Assembly (NCBI GenBank): GCA_013391845.1
Contig: CP058414.1
Coordinates: 372,001-436,000, forward strand
Direction of reading: 5' to 3'
DNA: 64,000 nt
Source of the DNA: Pseudoalteromonas shioyasakiensis
GTDB lineage: Bacteria > Pseudomonadota > Gammaproteobacteria > Enterobacterales > Alteromonadaceae
In this document: positions 14,835 to 54,024 of the stretch, in pieces
Position numbering within the stretch: the stretch's first letter is position 1
How the letters are laid out: every line of letters starts with the position of its first letter
Program-made: the position numbers and the translations under genes
Notes under the pieces: model-generated
The model's database searches: none
Seen by the model: the letters and a program-made list of their open reading frames with translations, nothing else
Told to the model about the DNA's origin: nothing

Positions 14835-17807
14835 ATGAAATGGATGCACTTACAACTTAAGGTACTGGCTGTTTTTTTATTCTTTGTGAGCTGCTTTGCA
14901 GCCGCTGAAGATTATCAGGTTGCACCTGCAGCTAACTGGGTAAAACAACATAAGTTACTAACCCCTGAGATTCCTCGAGACCAAATAAAAGACGGGACTT
15001 TCTACCTGATGCTCGACACTCAGCTTCAGGTATCTGAACAAGCCCCACAGCAACGCTTTAATCGCACTGTAATGCAGGCAGTCAATCAGTCTGGGGTTGA
15101 TTATATTAGCCAGCTAAATATTGATTTTGACCCAAACTACCAATCTCTTACGCTCAATAGTTTAGGCATTATTCGTGACGGCCAATATATAGATAAACTA
15201 AATAGTGCCGAGCTTCAGGTGTTACAGCGCGAGACCGACTTAGCAAGTCGTATATACAATGGCACCTTAAGCCTAAATGTCATTATTGATGATATGCGGG
15301 TCATGGATATTTTAGATTACAGCTATACGGTTTCGGGCAGTAACCCGGTTTATCAGCACTTCAGCACCATGCGTACACTTAATTGGTCTGTGCCGATAGT
15401 GCAGCAATTTATGCGGGTAAAGTGGCAAAAGCCTTCGCCCTTATATATCAACTTTATGAATGGTGAGTCGCCAGTTACTAAAACCAAGCTAGATACGGGT
15501 TTTGACTACCAAATTAGCCAACACAATGAGCCGACCCTTAGCTCTGCAAGCGAAGTACCGCATTGGTATTCGCCTTACAAGGAAGTGTATTTTTCTGAAG
15601 TAAATAATTGGCAAGAGGTAGTCAATTGGTCGTTACCTTTGTACCAATCAGCCATCGAAGTAAGCCCTGCTATTGAAACAATTGCTCGTCAGATTAAGTT
15701 TCAACATGCCGACTTAGAGTCTCAAATTGTGGCTGCCCTACGCTTTAGCCAAGACGAAGTACGTTATTTGGGCCTAGAAATGGGCACCAACTCGCACCAG
15801 CCTACTCCCGCATCAGAAACCTTGGCACTGCGCTATGGCGACTGTAAAGACAAAACCGTCTTGCTCATTTCTTTACTTAAAGCGCTCGGCGTAGAGGCTC
15901 ACCCTGCTTTAGTTAACACTGAAGACAGAAAACGTACTGCTAGCTTACCGGTCTCCCCTAGTTTATTTGACCATGTCATTGTCACCTTAGAGCACCAAGG
16001 TAAACGCTATTGGCTTGATCCAACCATTTCGTATCAGCGCGGCGATTTAGAACATTTAGCTCAACCGAACTACGATGTCGCGTTAATCATAAAGCAAGGT
16101 GAGACAGGCTTTACAGATATGTTCACAGAGCCTGCCCTAAAACGCATACAGGTTTTTGATAGTTATCAGATCCCAGAAGGTATTGATGAGCCAGTTAGTT
16201 TCTCAACTCAATATAAATACGGCGACTTTGAAGCAATTAGCCGCCGCAGCTCAATCGCTGAAAACAGCTTAAAAAGCATAGAAGATGATTACCGCGAATA
16301 TTATCAAGATACCTACAAAGGCTTACAAACAGCCAAACCTATGCTGGTTGAATCTCCAAAGGACACCGGTCAGCTAATTACCAATGAGCACTATACTATT
16401 GATAACTTTTGGCGACCTAAGGGTAATGATTTTCAAAACGACTTTTACGCCAGTGAAATTCAAAACTCAGTTTATAAGCCGGAACAGCGAGAACGTAACA
16501 ATGCACCAATATGGTTTCGTTACCCAAATAATATCGAAACAACCATAAAGGTTACGTTTACGGATACTAATTGGCAGTTTAATGATGAGCAGGTCACAGT
16601 CGACAACCCATTTTTTCATCTCGAAAAACGCGTGACATTTAAAGACTCGATGTTGACCTTATACTTTGATTACAGTGCGAAACAAGATCATATTCCAGCC
16701 GATCAAATAGACCTTTACCTAAGCGAGCGTAAAAAACTCAATAACGCGACCCATTACGGCATCATTAAATACGGCACAAATAGCGCCACAACCACACCAG
16801 CGGATGACGAAACCAACTGGTATAGCGTTTTTATTTTAAGTTACTTGGCGGCAATCATCTTTTTCATCGCGGCTTGGCGTATAGAAGCAAGTAACCGCCC
16901 AGTTTTTGCTGAGCAACAGTTCTACCCTGTCAGTAACAGTAAGTTTGTTATTTACAGCTTATTGAGCTTAGGAATATTCATTCACTACTGGAGCTATCGC
17001 AACTGGAAAGCGATAAAAGAGCAGCAACAAAGCCATATTATGCCGATTGCCCGAGGGATATTCGCACCACTGTTTTTTATTCCGTTGTTACTTGAACTTT
17101 GCAAGCACAGCGAACAAACCTTTGGCAAAAATAAGATCATGCCCGTCGCGGTTGGGTTCGCGTTATGGCTGGCGATTATCATTTCTGAAGTCGTAAGCTA
17201 TAACTGGGAATATGGTACTTGGCTGTTTTTAGTTATACCTATTCTATGGTTGCCACTGGTTAATTACATTCAAAACCTCAAGCAACCACAGCAGGCTCTT
17301 GAGTACCACTCTCAGTGGCGAGCGAGGCAGGTTATGATTTCGATATTCATGTTGCCTTGGCTATTTTATGGCTTAATTTATGAGCTATATTTGTTGCCAA
17401 GTTCAACCATAGTAACCGGTGATAAGCTTTGGTCTTATCAAGTTAACTTTTTAAAAAGAAAAGAAATTATTCCTGCTAACGAGAATGTACATTATTTTTA
17501 TAGTGACGCATTTTTCGATTTTAAAACTGATGGAAACGGCATCACAGAAAACACCATTTTTAGTTACTGGGAAAATGAGCAAGGTGTGCTCGAAAAAGAT
17601 CAACGCCGCTTTAGTGACATTAAAGAGATCAACGTTGATTATGCTAAAAGCGCCCTACTAACCTCTACGCTAACGGTCATTGACCACAATGGCGATGAAA
17701 TGCTGTTATTTTTGAGCCATGAAGATGACTTAGATAAGAAGTTTGTCGCTGAGGTAGAGCGCTTAATTAAAGCTAATACCCCAGCAACTGAGCAAAACGC
17801 AGATTAA
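14835..17807 (+). CDS. DUF3857 and transglutaminase-like membrane protein
   Basis: The product has 990 residues. A signal peptide (about 1-24) is followed by a DUF3857 domain (about 60-225). A transglutaminase-like core then shows a complete triad: Cys337 in YGDCKDKT, His380 in FDHVIV and Asp395 in YWLDPT. The C-terminal third has several membrane segments (about 660-680, 700-720, 745-765, 775-795, 835-855), followed by a cytoplasmic tail. The family is widespread in marine Gammaproteobacteria and Bacteroidetes, and a protease or protein-modifying activity is supposed but not settled. Its end overlaps the convergent kinase gene by four bases (17804-17807). Confidence 0.87.
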   Translation: MKWMHLQLKVLAVFLFFVSCFAAAEDYQVAPAANWVKQHKLLTPEIPRDQIKDGTFYLMLDTQLQVSEQAPQQRFNRTVMQAVNQSGVDYISQLNIDFDPNYQSLTLNSLGIIRDGQYIDKLNSAELQVLQRETDLASRIYNGTLSLNVIIDDMRVMDILDYSYTVSGSNPVYQHFSTMRTLNWSVPIVQQFMRVKWQKPSPLYINFMNGESPVTKTKLDTGFDYQISQHNEPTLSSASEVPHWYSPYKEVYFSEVNNWQEVVNWSLPLYQSAIEVSPAIETIARQIKFQHADLESQIVAALRFSQDEVRYLGLEMGTNSHQPTPASETLALRYGDCKDKTVLLISLLKALGVEAHPALVNTEDRKRTASLPVSPSLFDHVIVTLEHQGKRYWLDPTISYQRGDLEHLAQPNYDVALIIKQGETGFTDMFTEPALKRIQVFDSYQIPEGIDEPVSFSTQYKYGDFEAISRRSSIAENSLKSIEDDYREYYQDTYKGLQTAKPMLVESPKDTGQLITNEHYTIDNFWRPKGNDFQNDFYASEIQNSVYKPEQRERNNAPIWFRYPNNIETTIKVTFTDTNWQFNDEQVTVDNPFFHLEKRVTFKDSMLTLYFDYSAKQDHIPADQIDLYLSERKKLNNATHYGIIKYGTNSATTTPADDETNWYSVFILSYLAAIIFFIAAWRIEASNRPVFAEQQFYPVSNSKFVIYSLLSLGIFIHYWSYRNWKAIKEQQQSHIMPIARGIFAPLFFIPLLLELCKHSEQTFGKNKIMPVAVGFALWLAIIISEVVSYNWEYGTWLFLVIPILWLPLVNYIQNLKQPQQALEYHSQWRARQVMISIFMLPWLFYGLIYELYLLPSSTIVTGDKLWSYQVNFLKRKEIIPANENVHYFYSDAFFDFKTDGNGITENTIFSYWENEQGVLEKDQRRFSDIKEINVDYAKSALLTSTLTVIDHNGDEMLLFLSHEDDLDKKFVAEVERLIKANTPATEQNAD

Positions 17808-20800
17808 GTCAGTCGCTTAATCATGCGTTTTAAAGCGGGCGCTTTCAGAGGCTTATAAAGCAATGGATAGCCCGCATCGAGCACTAACTCGCGTATTCCT
17901 TCGTCATGATTCGCGGTATTAACGATGGCAGGTAAGCGTGTTAGTGCAGCTTGCTCAATCACTTCAAGGCCCGTTACCCCATCATCAAGCTGATAATCAA
18001 TAATCAACAATTGCGGCAGGGCTTGGCTTGCCTTTAACTGCTCAAGCTCCGCTAAGTTAGTGGCCGTTGATATTTCGCAGCCCCAATTTTCGAGTAACTG
18101 CTTTAATGCCTCTAATACGTTTCGGTCGTTATCAAGCAGCCAAATGCGCAATTGCCCCAGCTCTGTTTCTTGTGATGCCTCTGCCCCTTTCGCTTGCGCT
18201 GGCGCAGCGCTCACTTTACAAGGCAGAGTGAGGGTAAATTGCGTGCCTTTACCAAGCTCAGATCCCATCACTAAGGGGATCTTAAGTAAGTCACATATAC
18301 GTTTAGTGATTGCCAACCCTAAGCCTAAACCCTCGGCGCTTGGTTTTGCGCCAAGCTGTTTAAACTCTTGGAAAATAGTTTGTTGATCGCTCGATGCAAT
18401 ACCAATTCCTGTGTCTTCAACAATAAAGGATACATGGTCGTCGTCGTACTGCATTTTTAAGCGCACTTCACCTTGCTCAGTATAACGAATCGCATTACTC
18501 AAAAGGTTACGCAGCACTCGTCGCAGCAGCGCTTTGTCGGTATGCAAGCGCACATCGCAGGTTTCAATAATAAACTTTAAGCCTTTTTCGCGGGCAAGGG
18601 CTTCGTAGTCATTACGCAGCGGCTCAACCAACGAGCTGGCAGCAAACTCACTCATTTGTACTTTAAACGAGCCTGAATCGAGCTTGGTTAACTCTAAAAT
18701 ACTCGATAACAACTCTTCGGCACTGCCCAGTGAATTCTTAATATTCATCGCTAGCTCTTTAAGTTCAGTATCTTGGGCTTTTTCATTCATTAAAGAACAA
18801 AACAAGCTCGCAGCATTGAAAGGTTGTAGTAAATCATGGCTGGCAGCGGCAAAAAAGCGCGTTTTACTGACCGTTGCTTGCTCCGCCACTTGCTTTGCCA
18901 TCGACAACTCTTGGTTTGCTTGGGTCAGAGCTAAGGTGCGTGCCGCTACTTTTTCTTCAAGGCTAACATTTGCTTCGGTTAACGCTTTTTGTTGTTTTAC
19001 GAACTCGGTGATGTCGGTATAGGTTGTTACAAAGCCGCCACCAGGCAGTGGGTTACCTTGCATTTCAAACACACGCCCATCATTGTGCGAGCGCTGATAT
19101 TTATAAGCACTACCTTGGCGTAAATAAGCTAAGCGTTTTTCGACTTCGCTGGTCATGCTCTCACCGCTAAATAAGCCGCGCTCGGCATTAAATCGAATAA
19201 TATCAGCTACTGGGCGGCCAATGTATAAAGCATCGTCAGGATAAGCGAACATGCTTTTATAACCCTGGTTCCAAGCAACAAGACGCAGCTCACTATCAAC
19301 CACACTAATCCCTTGTTGAATATTTTCGATTGTTGACTGCAATAAATCACGATTAAACTTAAGTACTTGGCTCGCTTCATCAACAAATTCAGCAACCTGC
19401 TCTAAAGGCTGACGCTGCTCATTTTTAGCCACATCTAAAATAAGCCGTGCTGATGCTCCCCCAATCACCGCTGACATCTCGCGCTCAACTAATAGCTCTA
19501 ACTCAACATTGGCAGGACGCTTCCACTTACTTTTATCATCCGGAAAGTAATGATTTACCAAAGACTGTGCAGCTTCTTTTTCGGCAAATCGCTGCATTAG
19601 CGCGCCTAAGTCATGGTAACTCAAAGGCTGTAGATGATTACTCACTCGAGAATCACTAAGCTGAGAAACAAACTTATTGCTCTGCAAACGCTCAGCCAAA
19701 GTTGCACGACTAAATAACGGCACTAGGAAATACACTAAACAGTTCGCACCTAACGATAACAGTAGCGCCTGGCTGATGCTTTCCATACCTAAAGAGAATA
19801 AATCAGTAGGTGCTAACCAGCTTATTCCCCAAGGTCCATTCTCAAGCCATAAGCTATCGCTACCTAAACCTCCAGCGATATTCGGCAGTAAAAGTGTGTA
19901 ACCCCAAATAATAAAGCCGCTCAAAATCCCCAGTTGCGCACCACGACACGATGCTTGTCGCCACCATAAGCCAATGATCATGGCCGGTGAAAATTGCGCG
20001 ACTAAGGTAAACGACATCAAACCCACATTTGCAAGGGTTGTGCTTTCACCCAGCACTCGGTGAGTAAAATAACTAAGCAATAAAATCAATACGATAACGA
20101 TTTTACGCGCATGTAATAGGTTGTTTTTATCAAGCCCGCGGCTACTCGATGTAAGTTGAGAGCGGCGTAAAATAAACTGGTTAATAAAGTCATTGGTGAT
20201 CATCACTGAAAGCACAATTGATGACACTATCACCATACTGGTTGCCGCTGAAAAGCCACCTAAAAAGGCTAATAACGCCACAAAGGCATCATCAGCTGCC
20301 ATAGGTAAAGCTAATACAAAGGTGTCGTAACCGACTTCTTGGCCTTGAAAGTAAATTAATCCGGCGTATGCAATCGGTAGAATAAACAGATTAATGAGTA
20401 ATAGATAAATCGGAAATAGCCAACGTGCCGAGGCCAGTTCTTTATCGTTATTTTTTTCGATAAAGCTCATGTGGAATTGTCTTGGCAAACATAAGGTCGC
20501 CAAAATACCGAGTAAAGTATGGGCAACATACACATAGGTTGGACTTTGCGTGGCAGCCACTTGCTGATCAATATTTAGATCTCGGGCTTTTTCAAACAGT
20601 GCTACAGGACTGTCGAACAAAGCAAAACAAACATACAAACCCACCGCTAAAAACGCCAATAACTTAACCACTGACTCAAAAGCAATACTGGCTATCAGGC
20701 CTGGGTTATGCTCACTGGGTTTTAAGCGCCGAGCACCGAACAAAATAGCAAAAAGTGCCAACACGATGGTGATATAAAAAGTACTATCGGCCCACACTTC

Positions 20801-21253
20801 GTGGCTTTGCATCATTGAGCGGTTAGTTAGTAAATTAATACTTTGTGCAGTTGCACTTAGCTGTAAAGAGATATAGGGCACAATCGCAATCACTGAAATA
20901 AGTGAAATTAGCCCAGATAAGCTAGACGACTGACCATATCGCGTAGCGATAAAATCAGCCATCGAGGTTATTTTTTGTTGCCTACAAATATGCGCTATAC
21001 GGCAATACACTTGCCAACCAAAAATAAATAGCAAAATGGTGCCGGCATAGGTCGGTGCCAACCACCAGCCGTTATACGCAGCTTGTGCGGTAGTACCAAA
21101 AAACGCCCATGAAGTGCAATACACCCCAAGAGACAAACCATAGGTTAACCCTTTGAAGGGTAATACTTTTCTTTTATCAGCCCACCCAGCAACCGCAAAT
21201 AAAATTGCCAGATACACAATTGCAAGAAGGCTTATTGACCAAATTGAGAACAT
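17804..21253 (-). CDS. CbrA-like hybrid sensor kinase with sodium/solute symporter domain
   Basis: The product has 1149 residues. The N-terminal half (about 1-500) is an SSS-family symporter domain with about thirteen membrane helices. A linker with a PAS domain (about 645-755, STIENIQQGISVVDSELRLV) and a coiled coil follow. The kinase core has His806 in FFAAASHDLLQPFN, the ATPase boxes LLRNLLSNAIRYTEQG, VEDTGIGI and GLGLGLAI, and a C-terminal receiver with Asp1086 in LIIDYQLDDG. Relatives such as CbrA of Pseudomonas couple amino-acid or carboxylate sensing and transport to gene control. No partner regulator lies next to it. The stop overlaps the convergent gene at 17807. Confidence 0.9.
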   Translation of the reverse strand: MFSIWSISLLAIVYLAILFAVAGWADKRKVLPFKGLTYGLSLGVYCTSWAFFGTTAQAAYNGWWLAPTYAGTILLFIFGWQVYCRIAHICRQQKITSMADFIATRYGQSSSLSGLISLISVIAIVPYISLQLSATAQSINLLTNRSMMQSHEVWADSTFYITIVLALFAILFGARRLKPSEHNPGLIASIAFESVVKLLAFLAVGLYVCFALFDSPVALFEKARDLNIDQQVAATQSPTYVYVAHTLLGILATLCLPRQFHMSFIEKNNDKELASARWLFPIYLLLINLFILPIAYAGLIYFQGQEVGYDTFVLALPMAADDAFVALLAFLGGFSAATSMVIVSSIVLSVMITNDFINQFILRRSQLTSSSRGLDKNNLLHARKIVIVLILLLSYFTHRVLGESTTLANVGLMSFTLVAQFSPAMIIGLWWRQASCRGAQLGILSGFIIWGYTLLLPNIAGGLGSDSLWLENGPWGISWLAPTDLFSLGMESISQALLLSLGANCLVYFLVPLFSRATLAERLQSNKFVSQLSDSRVSNHLQPLSYHDLGALMQRFAEKEAAQSLVNHYFPDDKSKWKRPANVELELLVEREMSAVIGGASARLILDVAKNEQRQPLEQVAEFVDEASQVLKFNRDLLQSTIENIQQGISVVDSELRLVAWNQGYKSMFAYPDDALYIGRPVADIIRFNAERGLFSGESMTSEVEKRLAYLRQGSAYKYQRSHNDGRVFEMQGNPLPGGGFVTTYTDITEFVKQQKALTEANVSLEEKVAARTLALTQANQELSMAKQVAEQATVSKTRFFAAASHDLLQPFNAASLFCSLMNEKAQDTELKELAMNIKNSLGSAEELLSSILELTKLDSGSFKVQMSEFAASSLVEPLRNDYEALAREKGLKFIIETCDVRLHTDKALLRRVLRNLLSNAIRYTEQGEVRLKMQYDDDHVSFIVEDTGIGIASSDQQTIFQEFKQLGAKPSAEGLGLGLAITKRICDLLKIPLVMGSELGKGTQFTLTLPCKVSAAPAQAKGAEASQETELGQLRIWLLDNDRNVLEALKQLLENWGCEISTATNLAELEQLKASQALPQLLIIDYQLDDGVTGLEVIEQAALTRLPAIVNTANHDEGIRELVLDAGYPLLYKPLKAPALKRMIKRLT

Positions 21254-21368
21254 CGTATGTGATTATTTTAATTGTTATAGCCCCCAGCATAGTTTTTATT
21301 GCTAGTAATTTACAGCCTAACTTTAGTGCTAATGCACTGTATTACAGAAGGTTAAAAAACAGACACAA

Positions 21369-21387
21369 AGAAATGAGAATTATTTTC
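21369..21387 (+). promoter_or_regulatory. Weak Fur-box-like site upstream of the small RNA promoter
   Basis: Thirteen of 19 positions agree with the Fur consensus GATAATGATAATCATTATC. It lies just upstream of the -35 element at 21397. A second, better site overlaps the -10. Either may also affect the divergent kinase gene starting at 21253. Confidence 0.4.
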
Positions 21388-21396
21388 AATTGGGTA

Positions 21397-21425
21397 TTGA
21401 CAGATATTCAAATCTAATTGATAAT
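21397..21425 (+). promoter_or_regulatory. Strong sigma-70 promoter for the RyhB-like RNA
   Basis: TTGACA at 21397-21402 and GATAAT at 21420-21425 are separated by 17 bases, which is close to the ideal promoter. Transcription should start at about 21432. No credible protein gene lies downstream before the terminator at 21619-21644. Confidence 0.75.
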
Positions 21426-21432
21426 CAATATC
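21414..21432 (+). promoter_or_regulatory. Fur-box-like operator overlapping the -10 of the RyhB-like RNA
   Basis: CTAATTGATAATCAATATC agrees with the Fur consensus at 14 of 19 positions and covers the -10 element and the start site. Iron-loaded Fur bound here would block transcription. Confidence 0.6.
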
Positions 21433-21644
21433 AACAAGACAACGAAGTACTTGTTCGGAATAAACTGATTTGTTTCTCGACCCTGAAACACGTGTGGCCC
21501 ACGATAAAGCTAAGATCGCCTGTTGCTAATCGCAACGCCCCTTGATGTTGGCAACAGGTGGTCGCCCTACTATTTTACTTGCTACATTGCTCATATCGGT
21601 GACGGTAGATATGAAACTAAAAAAGCCCTTATAGGGCTTTTTTT
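21432..21644 (+). ncRNA. Candidate Fur-repressed small RNA of the RyhB type
   Basis: A consensus-like promoter overlapped by a Fur-box-like site is followed by about 210 bases without a believable ORF, ending in a strong intrinsic terminator with seven T. The segment ACATTGCTCA at 21584-21593, followed by TAT, matches the conserved seed region of Escherichia coli RyhB (ACATTGCTCACAT). The length agrees with Vibrio RyhB, which is over 200 nucleotides and longer than the 90-nucleotide enterobacterial form. Internally, CCTGTTGC (21519-21526) can pair with GCAACAGG (21551-21558). RyhB acts with Hfq to repress iron-using proteins under iron limitation. The identity is inferred from a ten-base match plus context, so it remains a candidate. 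Confidence 0.65.
21619..21644. terminator. Bidirectional terminator between the small RNA and ylqF
   Basis: AAAAAAGCCCT, TAT, AGGGCTTTTTTT. The stem has A and T tracts on both sides, so it can end the plus-strand RNA and the minus-strand ylqF message. Confidence 0.88.
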
Positions 21645-21669
21645 ATGTCTAAAACAAAAGGACGAGTTA

Positions 21670-22623
21670 TTAACGGCGGTTTTTACGCGCACGCGCTCGG
21701 CGTTGCTTTTTTTCTTCTTCTTTAGCTGCTTTTTTAGCCTCAGCAGCAGCGCGAAGCTGAGCAACCATTTGCTCTTCTTCTTCTCGCATAGCCGGGGTTT
21801 CCATGGTAATACGGCCAATAATGCCATCGCGTAATTCATTAATAAGAATTTCAGACATTTTGTAAGTATCGATTTGATTACCACCGCGGATACAGCCACG
21901 CTTTTTACCTGCCATTTCAACAAACTCCCAGTCAGACTCTGGTAGCTCATCAATTTTATAACGGCTTTTTAAAAGCTCTGGGTATGCATGCAATAAATAT
22001 TCAGCGGTGTAACTTGCCACTTCTTCATAATCGATAGCGGTATCACGAATTGCACCGGTTGCACCTAAACGATAACCAGAGTTTTCGTTCTCTACTTTAG
22101 GCCATAACATACCCGGCGTGTCGTAAAGCATAATACCATCGTCAAGCTTAATACGTTGCTGCGCTTTTGTTACCGCAGGCTCATTGCCTGTTTTTGCCAC
22201 AATACGGCCAGCTAAAGTATTAATAAGTGTTGATTTACCAACATTTGGAATACCCATGATCATGGCTTTAATTTGTTTATCGGCACCCACTTTATGAGGC
22301 ACTAATTTTTTACAAAGCTCATTAATACGGTGCACTTCACCTGCTTTATCATTACCAAAATCAATCGCTTTCACACCACTTTGCTGCTCAAAGTAGTCTT
22401 TCCAAGCTTGCGTTAACTTAGGATCAGCCAAGTCCGCCTTATTCATGATTTTGATCACCGGCTTATCGCCACGCAGCGCAGTAACCATTGGGTTTTCACT
22501 ACTATAAGGAATACGGGCATCAAGTACCTCAATGATCACATCCATCTGTGGCATGATTTCTTTAATTTCGTTGCGGGCTTTGTTCATGTGACCCGGGAAC
22601 CACTGTATTCCTGCTCTACTCAT
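21670..22623 (-). CDS. ylqF: Ribosome biogenesis GTPase YlqF/RbgA
   Basis: The product has 317 residues. It has the circularly permuted GTPase order typical of this family. The G4 motif NKAD (61-64) comes before G1 GIPNVGKS (124-131) and G3 DTPG (168-171). The N-terminus IQWFPGHMNKARNEI is diagnostic. A basic, alanine/glutamate-rich tail (EEEKKQRRARARKNRR) likely contacts RNA. The protein assists late assembly of the large ribosomal subunit. It appears to be transcribed alone and ends at the shared terminator 21619-21644. Confidence 0.95.
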   Translation of the reverse strand: MSRAGIQWFPGHMNKARNEIKEIMPQMDVIIEVLDARIPYSSENPMVTALRGDKPVIKIMNKADLADPKLTQAWKDYFEQQSGVKAIDFGNDKAGEVHRINELCKKLVPHKVGADKQIKAMIMGIPNVGKSTLINTLAGRIVAKTGNEPAVTKAQQRIKLDDGIMLYDTPGMLWPKVENENSGYRLGATGAIRDTAIDYEEVASYTAEYLLHAYPELLKSRYKIDELPESDWEFVEMAGKKRGCIRGGNQIDTYKMSEILINELRDGIIGRITMETPAMREEEEQMVAQLRAAAEAKKAAKEEEKKQRRARARKNRR

Positions 22624-29057: not shown

Positions 29058-29531
29058 ATGTCACAGGTAAATGCAATTGGTTTAAACAGCGCAAAAAGTG
29101 AAGACATCGTAAATTCACTAAACTCTTTACTAAGCTGCTACCAAATTCAATATATGAACGCACGCGGCTTTCATTGGAATATCAAAGGTCGTAACTTTTT
29201 TGAATTACACCTTAAATTTGAAGAAATTTATAACTTACTACTTGAGAAAGTAGATGAAATTGCAGAGCGTATTTTAACTTTAGGTGGTACACCTGTACAT
29301 GCATTCTCTGAGTACATCGAAGATAGCAAGATTAGTGAAGCAAAAAACATCACTGAAGGCACTGCTGCAGTAGAAAATCTATTAGCAGGTTACAGCACGC
29401 TTATCCAAATGCAGCGTGAAATCTTAGCACAAGCAGGTGATGCAGACGACGAAGGTACAGCATCATTAATGGGAGATTACATCAAAGAACAAGAGAAACT
29501 TGTTTGGATGCTAAAAGCTTACCTTGATTAA
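29058..29531 (+). CDS. dps: Dps family DNA-binding ferritin-like protein
   Basis: The product has 157 residues. The intersubunit ferroxidase site is complete: His39 (GFHW), His51, Asp66 and Glu70, with the standard spacing. Dps forms a 12-subunit shell that oxidises Fe(II) with hydrogen peroxide and stores iron, protecting DNA. The N-terminus is short and not lysine-rich, so DNA binding may be weak. A GGAG ribosome site precedes the ATG. It appears monocistronic, ending at the terminator 29549-29575, with an OxyR-like site upstream. Confidence 0.95.
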   Translation: MSQVNAIGLNSAKSEDIVNSLNSLLSCYQIQYMNARGFHWNIKGRNFFELHLKFEEIYNLLLEKVDEIAERILTLGGTPVHAFSEYIEDSKISEAKNITEGTAAVENLLAGYSTLIQMQREILAQAGDADDEGTASLMGDYIKEQEKLVWMLKAYLD

Positions 29532-32427: not shown

Positions 32428-32997
32428 CTAATGCGATACTTGTTGCCAAGCCATAGCCCAGCTTTTTCCTACACCCGGTTCAAATAGCGGATTGTGTGAA
32501 TCTTTAACACGACAAAACTCGCTAAATGGCCATGGTTTACACATATAAATATGGCCTGTTTTGGGCTGTAGAACTTTAACACCCGCACTGTAATCGCTGC
32601 ATGCTTGTGGGTATACATAGTCGTAATCTTGTAGACTATCTTGCACTCGCTCTTTACATTTTGCGATGCAATTAAACGCCACTTTCACATGCGTAATGCC
32701 CGAGCCTTCAAGGGCATAAATTTGGTTTGAACGGTACGCAACCACTAAACCTTGTTCAGTCATTTTGCCCGCTTTTACTAGCGGAATATGCACGTTTATA
32801 TGCTCAGCAACAGAACGTGGCCAATTATGAGGCTCACCCTGATCGGCACTGCTGATCGGGTATTCGAATGATAAATCGACTAGCTCTCCTTGCATGTCAT
32901 AAAAGGTCACAATCACCCTATCACCAACAAACAGTTGGGTATGATGATTCAAGCAACCAATCGGCAACCACTTCCCGGAGGCCATTGACGTATGCAT
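32428..32997 (-). CDS. GbpA-like chitin-binding protein lacking LPMO domain and signal peptide
   Basis: The product has 189 residues from the ATG at 32997 (AGGGTGA lies about 10 bases upstream; TTG at 33003 is an alternative). Residues about 8-108 match the second domain of Vibrio GbpA (LFVGDRVIVTFYDMQGE, EHIN, KAGK, NQIYALEGSGITHVKV). Residues 124-187 match a CBM73 chitin-binding module (YDYVYP, YSAGVKVL, HIYMCKPWPF, EPGVGKSWAMAW). The N-terminal AA10 lytic polysaccharide monooxygenase domain, the signal peptide and the third GbpA domain are absent. The product should stay in the cytoplasm, so this may be the remnant of a deleted gbpA. A cyclic-di-GMP riboswitch in the leader, as at gbpA of Vibrio cholerae, supports that origin. 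Confidence 0.75.
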   Translation of the reverse strand: MHTSMASGKWLPIGCLNHHTQLFVGDRVIVTFYDMQGELVDLSFEYPISSADQGEPHNWPRSVAEHINVHIPLVKAGKMTEQGLVVAYRSNQIYALEGSGITHVKVAFNCIAKCKERVQDSLQDYDYVYPQACSDYSAGVKVLQPKTGHIYMCKPWPFSEFCRVKDSHNPLFEPGVGKSWAMAWQQVSH

Positions 32998-33094
32998 AAA
33001 CAAAATATCACCCTAAGAACAACTAATAGGTATTATCCAACAACCGAACAAAAAATACTTTTAGTTTGAGGCAAGTGAACCAAAGCACTAGATT

Positions 33095-33180
33095 ATGTGC
33101 TTATCAGCGGCCCCGCTATCATAGTATAAAACCTTAGACCGGAAACTTTGCGTCCTAACCTTTCAGTTAGTTTGCCAAAA
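33095..33180 (-). ncRNA. Cyclic-di-GMP class I (GEMM-I) riboswitch
   Basis: Read on the minus strand, the leader of the GbpA-like gene contains the GEMM-I core in order. It has GGCAAAC (33176-33170), a P2 stem CTAACT/GGTTAG capped by a GAAA tetraloop (33164-33161), and GGACGCAAAG (33156-33147). A tetraloop-receptor segment TTTCCGGTCTAAGG (33145-33132) and then TAGCGGGG (33118-33111) complete it. These match the Vibrio cholerae Vc2 aptamer closely, with compensating changes in P2. The expression platform is not clear; an AGCAC/GTGCT hairpin follows just downstream. Confidence 0.9.
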
Positions 33181-33278
33181 ACAAGATTGAGTATAATCGT
33201 GACCGAATCACAAATCAAACAAAAGAATGTAACCAAACATCTTATATAGCAAATAGTTACTAGAAATGCATGAGATAC

Positions 33279-51989: not shown

Positions 51990-52008
51990 GGTAATGCAAA
52001 TCATTATC
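51990..52008 (+). promoter_or_regulatory. Fur box upstream of the PepSY/DUF2271/DUF4198 operon
   Basis: GGTAATGCAAATCATTATC agrees with the Fur consensus at 16 of 19 positions. It lies 32 bases ahead of the first ATG of the operon, in or just below the promoter. Confidence 0.75.
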
Positions 52009-52039: not shown

Positions 52040-52672
52040 ATGTTCTCATTTAACAAACGTAGCTTTTATAGCGTTAGCCGCGCCTTACACATATACCTTT
52101 CAACGGCCTTATTCTTTTTACTTATTTTATTTTGTGTCAGCGGCATCATTCTTAATCACGTTAGTTGGCTCGAAAATGATAAACATAATGGTCAGAACCA
52201 ACTACTTGTTTCTGCAAAGTTATTCGAAAAAGCACAAGCTAATCTCGACACGTTACCGAGCCTATACCTTGAAATAGAACAGTACATGCAGCAGCAATTT
52301 TCACTTAGTAATGTAAAAAGTATTGAGTGGGAAAAAGAAGATGCGTTAGTAATGCTCGACTATCCGCTGCCAGCAGGCTTTGCTTACGCCGAAATCGATT
52401 TTCAAACGGGCGAGCTCAATATTGATTATCAAACCGGCGGCTTTATGAGTCTGATTGGCGACCTACACAAAGGCCGCCATACAGGTAAAGCATGGAGCTG
52501 GGTCATTGATATCTCAGCTGTTTTGATGATTCTGTTTGCCATCACCGGATTAATTATTCTCTTTCAAAACCGTAAAAAACGGGCCGCAGGCCTTTGGTTA
52601 ACGCTTCTTGGTGTTGCCACGCCTTTGGTCATTTATCTAGTTTGGGTGCCTCAACTTAAAGGAGTATCTTAA
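52040..52672 (+). CDS. PepSY-associated membrane protein
   Basis: The product has 210 residues. An N-terminal membrane helix (about 17-38), a periplasmic PepSY-like region and two C-terminal helices (about 150-177 and 187-205, with the family segment DLHKGRHTGKAWSWVIDISA) are visible. Such proteins accompany iron or siderophore uptake genes and may reduce or move ferric compounds; the role is not proven. Its stop overlaps the next ATG (TAATG). Confidence 0.87.
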   Translation: MFSFNKRSFYSVSRALHIYLSTALFFLLILFCVSGIILNHVSWLENDKHNGQNQLLVSAKLFEKAQANLDTLPSLYLEIEQYMQQQFSLSNVKSIEWEKEDALVMLDYPLPAGFAYAEIDFQTGELNIDYQTGGFMSLIGDLHKGRHTGKAWSWVIDISAVLMILFAITGLIILFQNRKKRAAGLWLTLLGVATPLVIYLVWVPQLKGVS

Positions 52673-53172
52673 TGAAACAAGCCCACTTAATCGCAGCTCT
52701 ACTAATTGGCTGTTTATTCAGCCCACTGAGCTTTGCAAAAGATCCCAACCTCACCGTTGAGTTCACTTTACCTGAGCTAGATGTTTCTCCATATCATCGC
52801 CCTTACGTGGCGCTATGGCTAGAAACACCTGAACGTAAACACGTTACCACTATTGCACTTTGGGTCGAAAAAGCTGAATGGTTTAAAGACTTACGTCAGT
52901 GGTGGCGAAAAGCAGGTCGTAGCAACGACAGCTTTGATGGTGTAACAGGTGCAACAAAACGCCCAGGCACTTACACCATTGAGTGGCAAGGTAAAGATTT
53001 AAAAGGTAATCCAGTTAAACCTGGTAGCTACCTGCTTAATGTTGAAGTTGTACGTGAGGAAGGTGGCCGAGATTACACCCGCGTTGAAATCGACTTAACG
53101 AAAGACGGCAAAGTCACAATTAAAGGCGAAAAAGAGTTCGCGACTAGCTTTGTTACCATTACCAGTAATTAA
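52672..53172 (+). CDS. DUF2271 periplasmic protein
   Basis: The product has 166 residues. It has a signal peptide (about 1-22, ending SFAKD) and a beta-sandwich-like DUF2271 body (VALWLETPERKHVTTIALWV, FDGVTGATKRPG, YLLNVEVVREEGG). It is translated from the overlapping stop/start with the PepSY gene. The function is not known, but in many Gammaproteobacteria this trio is under Fur control. Confidence 0.9.
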   Translation: MKQAHLIAALLIGCLFSPLSFAKDPNLTVEFTLPELDVSPYHRPYVALWLETPERKHVTTIALWVEKAEWFKDLRQWWRKAGRSNDSFDGVTGATKRPGTYTIEWQGKDLKGNPVKPGSYLLNVEVVREEGGRDYTRVEIDLTKDGKVTIKGEKEFATSFVTITSN

Positions 53173-53181
53173 GGACAAACA

Positions 53182-54024
53182 ATGAAATTAAAATTATTAA
53201 AAACGGCGCTGATTGGCGCAGTAACCTTCACAGCACTTGCCTCTGGCTATGCACAAGCACACGCCCGTTGGTTAATGCCATCTCACACTTCTTTATCTGG
53301 TGAGAAAACTCACTATGTGATGATCGATGCCAGTATTTCGAATGAGTTGTTTAGCCCAGATAAAGCATACCGCCCGAAAGAAAAAGGCGCAGAGTATGAC
53401 GACAACTTATTAATTGCCCTTGCTCCAAATGGTAAGCCGGTTAAAGAAACGATCCGCGCATACTACTTAAAACGCAAAAACTCAGCGGCAGTGAGTTTAT
53501 CTCAAGACGGTACTTACCATATTGCTATGCAGCAAAAACCAATGCTAATGACTTTCTATAAAGACAAAGATGGCAACCGTGGCCGTGTGTTCGCAGGTAA
53601 AAAAGAAGCAGACCTACCAGCAGGCGCAACCGATGTACGCACTGTAAAATCAATCGCAACGGTTGATACTTTTGTAAGCCGTAATGGTACTTCTAAGCCA
53701 ACATTGCTTGGTCAAGGTTTAGAAATTTCAGGCCCAACTCACCCGAACGATCTATTTGCTGGTGAAGAAGCTAAGTTCCAATTATTAATGGATGGCAAAC
53801 CAGCCGCTGACGTTGAGCTTGCTATTGTTCGTGGTAGTGCACGCTATCGCAATGAGCGTGACGAAGTGAAAGTAACAACCGATAAAAAAGGCTTCTTTAC
53901 TGTGACATTCGCTCATGCCGATATGTATCTGATTGAAGCATCTGTTGATCAAAAACCAACAGAGGCCGATATCGATAATGTACGCTACTCATTATTCACA
54001 ACGCTTGAAGTGGCGCCTGAGTAG
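53182..54024 (+). CDS. DUF4198 periplasmic protein
   Basis: The product has 280 residues. A signal peptide ends near AQAHARW; after cleavage the mature N-terminus would carry a His (HARW), a usual metal-binding feature of the DUF4198/NikK-like group. An Ig-like domain follows (ANGKPVKETIRAYY, LLMDGKPAADVELAIVRG, KGFFTVTFAHADMYLIEA). It is third in the Fur-linked operon and probably binds metal for the uptake system. The metal is not known. Confidence 0.9.
   Translation: MKLKLLKTALIGAVTFTALASGYAQAHARWLMPSHTSLSGEKTHYVMIDASISNELFSPDKAYRPKEKGAEYDDNLLIALAPNGKPVKETIRAYYLKRKNSAAVSLSQDGTYHIAMQQKPMLMTFYKDKDGNRGRVFAGKKEADLPAGATDVRTVKSIATVDTFVSRNGTSKPTLLGQGLEISGPTHPNDLFAGEEAKFQLLMDGKPAADVELAIVRGSARYRNERDEVKVTTDKKGFFTVTFAHADMYLIEASVDQKPTEADIDNVRYSLFTTLEVAPE

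Follow-up and report, generated by a model that had tools for sequence, protein, structure and literature searches.

A conserved, putatively Fur-repressed small RNA element of Pseudoalteromonas with RyhB-like predicted targets

The window analysed here, a 64,000-nucleotide stretch of the Pseudoalteromonas shioyasakiensis genome, carries between two minus-strand genes a short region in which Fur-box-like sites, a promoter, several predicted RNA hairpins around a linear segment, and a terminator follow one another (Table 1). The flanking genes encode a CbrA-like hybrid histidine kinase and a GTPase which we take to be ylqF, the name given in the initial annotation of this DNA.

Table 1. Features of the candidate small RNA locus and its flanking genes (window positions).
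Feature	Position	Strand	Remarks
CbrA-like hybrid histidine kinase	17804..21253	-	PAS, HisKA, HATPase, receiver; SSF below cut-off
Upstream Fur-box-like site AAATGAGAATTATTTTCAATT	21371..21391	+	best 19-mer 21369-21387, 13/19
Sigma-70 type promoter TTGACA-17-GATAAT	21397..21425	+	hexamers 21397-21402 and 21420-21425
Fur-box-like site covering the -10	21414..21432	+	14/19, best match at the locus
Predicted sRNA transcript, ~213 nt	21432..21644	+	extent predicted from promoter and terminator
Hairpin with C-rich loop CTCGACCC	21472..21489	+	loop 21476-21483
Long hairpin with conserved CGCCCCTT loop	21514..21563	+	loop 21536-21543; covariation
Linear seed TTTTACTTGCTACATTGCTCA	21573..21593	+	includes ACATTGCTCA (21584-21593)
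Core hairpin CATATC-GGTGACGGTA-GATATG	21592..21613	+	loop 21598-21607
Intrinsic terminator	21619..21644	+	stem-loop 21619-21643, then T run
YlqF-type GTPase	21670..22623	-	MMR_HSR1

The element is not peculiar to this strain. A DNA search of 60 genomes returned matches in 37 of them: 35 belong to Pseudoalteromonas, which was represented by 36 genomes, and the matches in the two from outside the genus are short. The sole Pseudoalteromonas genome with no match (G015) is an assembly of about 180 contigs, in which the covariance model found nothing above 24.7 bits. From the 35 genomes we extracted 88 distinct copies, often in tandem, choosing them by likeness to the 36-nt core (at most 6 substitutions in 36) and counting copies identical across 230 bases once. 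At the main locus, defined by the best DNA match, this filter finds one copy in 14 genomes, two in 7, three in 11 and none in 3; one array (L024) includes a fourth, indel-bearing copy that the filter missed. Second-locus copies number one in 20 genomes, two in 2, three in 1 and none in 12. Such tandem arrays are not visible from a single window. Nine records of replicons of 0.79-0.92 Mb, listed as plasmids, each hold one copy, under which no feature is annotated in a gene table that omits RNA genes. Strain Bsw20308, for example, carries a copy on its 0.9-Mb replicon. The exact core pattern occurs in at least 120 stretches of the genome collection, and all 80 of those listed belong to Pseudoalteromonas. 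The GTPase gene lies within about 1.5 kb of the element in 23 of 32 main-locus stretches and the kinase gene in 9 of 32, so that the kinase is no fixed partner of the sRNA.

The promoter agrees with the consensus at 11 of 12 positions, and the other signals previously proposed around it (a Fur-box-like sequence of 14/19 on the -10, a weaker one upstream, and a strong intrinsic terminator) were all recovered where Table 1 places them. Taken by itself this promoter is within chance, since the interval 21000-22000 holds two promoter-like sites against 2.9 expected from shuffles. Single Fur-box-like scores at this locus are also unremarkable by themselves, as the 64 kb contain 9 sites of at least 14/19 and 26 of at least 13/19 when one strand is scored. 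As 84 of the 88 copies had passed a promoter pattern, their hexamer identities are partly a matter of choice, and we give those of the 61 main-locus copies, which were aligned without promoter selection. TTGACA is present in 54 of these and GATAAT in 58, with mean pairwise identities of 95% and 97% (36% for the first eight bases of the spacer). The upstream Fur site has a mean pairwise identity of 80%, against 19% farther upstream; the figures are 0.80 for the 9 bases before the -10, 0.91 for the 12 bases after it, and 0.40 at 21438-21465, downstream of the promoter. A Fur-like site of at least 13/19 covers the -10 in 76 of the 84 promoter-bearing copies (2.3% of shuffles) and precedes the -35 in 54 of them (2.5% of shuffles). 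Sequence and conservation thus point to a Fur operator at the promoter, as in the class of iron-sparing, Fur-regulated sRNAs. The terminator was reported by the terminator scan on the minus strand only, and the same stem read on the plus strand precedes a run of T. Its letters differ between copies with the GC stem and the T run kept (an uninterrupted run of six T is absent from 2 of the 88 copies).

Transcription would start at 21432, seven bases past the -10, where CAACAA, the first six bases of the predicted RNA, is invariant in 32 aligned type-I copies. The resulting length is, as the initial annotation had remarked, like that of Vibrio RyhB, for which PMC2964681 gives 215 nt in Vibrio cholerae. 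The fold of 21432-21644 has an energy of -67.3 kcal/mol (z = -5.2), and none of 200 shuffles is equally stable. Its 5' part contains two C-rich loops: the first, CTCGACCC, is exact in 42 of the 61 copies at the main locus and in 14 of the 27 at second loci, and the CGCCCCT loop of the long hairpin is common at the main locus (57 of 61 copies) and rare at second loci (5 of 27), where many copies do not keep the C-rich loops. As a side observation, these loops might bind ribosome-binding sites, as in FsrA-type RNAs.

Covariation was scored on 32 full-length sequences, a chosen part of the 60 type-I copies. In the long hairpin, 10 of the 12 counted pairs show changes on both sides (a two-pair helix predicted within the seed was omitted from the pair count). 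For the long hairpin and core stem together, 92% of cells are paired, falling to at most 40% once the partners are slid; the covariation score is reached by 0 of 500 shuffles, and 12 of 500 have as many double-changed pairs, with the caveat that kindred sequences can outscore shuffles even where there is no structure. All of 300 cells are paired in the core hairpin stem, five of whose pairs are invariant and one double-changed in 3 of 50 rows. In a fold of the sequence on its own, the core loop is unpaired with probabilities of 0.85-1.00 and the RyhB-like segment is partly paired. The 36-nt core has an identity of 0.97 in 84 copies, which is partly by choice because copies were picked for likeness to it; the seed and loop are kept, but both the terminator loop and what follows it drift. 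The last base of the core loop is U rather than A in 22 of the 88 copies, which shortens the match to sodB described below.

The targets that we tested are the three classic RyhB targets sodB, sdhC and acnB. Read together with its closing base, the core loop is perfectly complementary to CTACCGTCA in sodB (codons 5-7), a site that was found by inspection, with no prior prediction. Alignment of 29 Pseudoalteromonas sodB genes gives 130 invariant residues, 67 of which have at least four codons; five of these 67 use a single codon in 29/29 genes, and codons 5, 6 and 7 account for three of them (chance 2.1e-4). Nowhere outside codons 4-7 do four or more consecutive positions each use a single codon. 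The site is retained in G015, although the element was not found in that fragmented assembly. In a family-wide sample of SOD genes (start motif recognised at 27 of 29 loci, two unscored) the loop-complementary site is present in one extra Pseudoalteromonas gene and in 0 of 26 from other genera; residue 7 of those 26 is Ala, Pro or Glu, never Ser, so that the absence of the site is partly an amino-acid difference. The sodB 10-mer exceeds the longest perfect complement (9) among 209 background genes, and it spans +13 to +22, at the outer limit of the stretch in which pairing is known to block initiation. In E. coli, RyhB pairs with the sodB start region through its seed; at the Pseudoalteromonas sodB start regions inspected, no complement of ACATTGCTCA was found. 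From the sequences, sodB appears to be met through the loop rather than through the RyhB seed.

In sdhC, GCAAGTAA, the complement of TTACTTGC, stands ahead of the GTG start in 29/29 genomes, preceded by GTGRGCAA in 19/29. Codons 2-10 of sdhC are nearly frozen too, so the conservation of the leader is not specific to pairing and this case is weaker. In acnB, for which the start motif was found at 22 of the 25 loci given from 30 fetched, CGTCACC, the complement of the core loop, sits shortly before the Shine-Dalgarno sequence in 21/22 genes (the exception is G-U compatible), and a second segment able to pair with AUUGCUC, by a loose pattern, occurs in 17/22. Duplex energies are only moderately unusual and would not convince alone: energies as low are reached in the genome itself by 8 (sodB), 10 (sdhC) and 13 (acnB) of 209 background genes, and 3, 12 and 30 of 500 shuffled cores, respectively, do as well. 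It is conservation that carries the case, complementarity near the start of iron-enzyme mRNAs, a feature of the functional class, being kept in 29/29 genes for sodB, 29/29 for sdhC and 21/22 for acnB. Complementarity to sodB, sdh and acn, where pairing was originally suggested, is in this sense present for all three, except that in sodB it is to the loop, within codons 5-7, and not to ACATTGCTCA at the start.

Beyond these genes, the start region of a gene that reads as IscU-like (L397:5896-6280, minus strand) gives one of the lowest energies with the core, -26.3 kcal/mol, and is a possible further target. Complements of the linear seed with at most 3 mismatches occur at 33 places in the genome, namely the element, 23 places in TTAGCAAG repeats and nine others; eight of the nine were inspected as targets, and none has a plausible start at a distance of 60 bases or less. 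Long complements of the loop region are limited, in the same genome, to the element and one place with 3 mismatches. The 8-base repeat TTAGCAAG forms arrays at G000:C1:3192883, 3233240 and 3397521 that are possibly variable in length.

We consider it probable, at roughly 0.8, that the element encodes a Fur-repressed, trans-acting, iron-sparing sRNA that pairs with the sodB, acnB and sdhC mRNAs. When iron is plentiful, Fur bound at the two operators, one of them over the -10, would keep the sRNA gene off; on iron starvation, an RNA of about 210 nt would be made. Its apical loop GGUGACGGUA would pair with codons 5-7 of sodB and with a stretch immediately before the acnB ribosome-binding site, and the sdhC leader would be bound by the linear seed UUACUUGC...AUUGCUCA, presumably all with a need for Hfq. 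Pairing would block translation and expose the target mRNAs to decay, and multiple copies may raise the dose of the sRNA.

How this RNA relates to RyhB itself is a separate matter. The segment ACATTGCTCA is, as first noted, identical to E. coli RyhB: it is found exactly in the annotated ryhB of MG1655, which contains ACATTGCTCACAT, and it is intact in 87 of the 88 copies. Against the RyhB core ACATTGCTCACATTGCTTCC, the Pseudoalteromonas core matches exactly over ACATTGCTCA and at 12 of 13 positions across ACATTGCTCAyAT. None of the 4227 Rfam families matches the element at its gathering score, and a search of a 416-base region at E values up to 10 gave 17 weak matches, many of them on the terminator, with the RyhB model RF00057 (gathering score 55 bits) not among them. 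In the whole genome the best of seven weak RF00057 places reaches 21.2 bits and is elsewhere than the element.

The element could be a strongly diverged true ortholog of RyhB that left its usual locus, gained a 5' domain and moved its sodB contact from the seed to the loop, a possibility that we take seriously but hold to be somewhat doubtful. For such descent speak the same type of regulator, the overlapping predicted targets, and the alignment of TTGCT-ACATTGCT to RyhB TTGCTCACATTGCT with one gap, which 9 of 2000 shuffled cores equal in score. The distribution of RyhB is also suggestive: among 197 genomes of the order, RF00057 scores above its cut-off in 47 and matches at E values up to 0.001 in 69, and none of the 69 falls in the family of Pseudoalteromonas, of which at least 14 members were sampled. 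Some weak RF00057 matches elsewhere in the order (L414-L418 and L428, in two other families) form tandem, RyhB-like arrays too. Against it, besides the lack of an RF00057 match here, the model built from the Pseudoalteromonas copies (R1) scores no higher than 33.7 bits outside the genus when 196 genomes of the family and 394 of the order are searched with Infernal's stricter filters; R1 is near to a sequence model because the structure used for it missed the terminator. Two R1 hits outside the genus were rejected, L199 because it reads as antisense to a signal peptide and L207 as a probable chance match. Orthology through a common gene neighbourhood was considered and discarded, as neither the kinase of the window nor ylqF has a homolog, at E values up to 1e-5, in any of seven RyhB loci from other families. 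One of the seven (L432) gives a single response-regulator hit to the window, and in five the same large polymerase-like ORF, polA by reading, lies beside RyhB. Moreover, a short common segment could have arisen by convergence on similar targets.

Given the lack of both an RF00057 match and a common neighbourhood, membership of RF00057 is unsupported. The failure of the model is nonetheless compatible with descent, because Shewanella RyhB was also missed by BLAST and by the Rfam model and was found through its locus, core and Fur box, according to PMC2964681. As regards the RyhB-type sRNA of the initial annotation, a RyhB-like function, predicted from genome comparison, is well supported, but not membership of the RyhB family, and the element seems to be either a new relative of RyhB or an RNA that resembles it.

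The remaining explanations fare less well. That this is a Fur-regulated sRNA with another job, such as controlling genes for iron uptake or the envelope, with the matches to sodB, sdhC and acnB secondary, could be argued from the conserved C-rich loops CTCGACCC and CGCCCCTT, which could bind other ribosome-binding sites, and from the background genes that pair as well as the three targets; we find it improbable in view of the frozen sodB codons, which match the loop and do not occur in the sampled genes of other genera. That the region is a translated short ORF or a dual-function mRNA is very unlikely. Although short ORFs do overlap 21369-21644, the many indels, of many lengths, upstream of the core among the 32 aligned full-length copies argue against a conserved ORF, as does an RNA stem with compensatory changes. 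A mobile or structural DNA repeat, which the tandem and dispersed copies might suggest, can hardly be reconciled with main-locus copies that keep promoter and operator as the adjoining sequence drifts, nor with the absence of any exact core-pattern match in a collection of viral contigs.

For a Fur-repressed, iron-sparing sRNA, a wider reading, whose chances we judge to be even, is that of a genus-specific family of iron-starvation RNAs that targets sodB by a contact between loop and coding sequence, has frozen the synonymous codons of sodB at this contact throughout the genus, has its dose tuned by tandem copy number and second loci, and has replaced, or is a remodelled form of, RyhB in a family in which RyhB was searched for and not detected. 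The genus is common in the sea, and if this is right its likely iron-sparing regulator is now named, together with an example of how an sRNA can limit the codons used by one of its targets and a natural series of one to four tandem copies for the study of sRNA dosage. The element also bears on the question of whether RyhB-like RNAs have evolved more than once or have diverged past recognition.

Comparison with known systems gives a mixed picture. PrrF1 and PrrF2 of Pseudomonas are tandem, Fur-regulated, iron-sparing sRNAs, whereas the Pseudoalteromonas element has up to four tandem copies as well as second loci; the PrrF covariance model is not among the 17 weak Rfam matches at the element, which gives no ground for placing it in that family. 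BrrF, HrrF, IsrR, NrrF and FsrA are likewise sRNAs that respond to iron and repress iron enzymes, and FsrA too is C-rich; at the level of Rfam the element is set apart from these five in that no family matches it at gathering score. With RyhB (RF00057) it shares the Fur-box promoter, the ACATTGCTCA segment, the terminator and the predicted targets sodB, sdh and acn. It differs from RyhB in that its second TTGCT unit is offset by one base, its predicted sodB contact is a hairpin loop pairing within the coding sequence, and it has a covarying 5' hairpin with a C-rich loop. Shewanella RyhB, as described in PMC2964681, is 168 nt long, has two tandem copies in one species, adjoins the ortholog of a Vibrio ryhB neighbour, is reported to align with the enterobacterial core, and had no effect on TCA-cycle genes; its tandem copies and its escape from the Rfam model resemble what we see in Pseudoalteromonas. 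The intergenic Csr sRNAs Pf1, Pf2 and Pf3 of Pseudoalteromonas fuliginea are sponges with 9 to 25 GGA motifs (PMC9927453 and PMC11882849), while 21432-21644 has one GGA, unlike a CsrB-type RNA. Our searches of openly licensed literature gave no description of an iron-responsive sRNA in Pseudoalteromonas, nor of this RNA under Alteromonadales.

Some other features of the window may be recorded. Its best Fur-box match, 16/19 with one strand scored, is at 51990-52008, upstream of a set of PepSY_TM, DUF2271 and DUF4198 genes (52040-54024) that we presume to be iron-related. A ferritin-like gene, Dps-type by reading, is found at 29058-29531. The window's only Rfam match at gathering score is a c-di-GMP-I riboswitch at 33103-33186 on the minus strand (67.8 bits, gathering score 35), downstream of which, at 32428-33003, lies a gene with a GbpA_2 domain.
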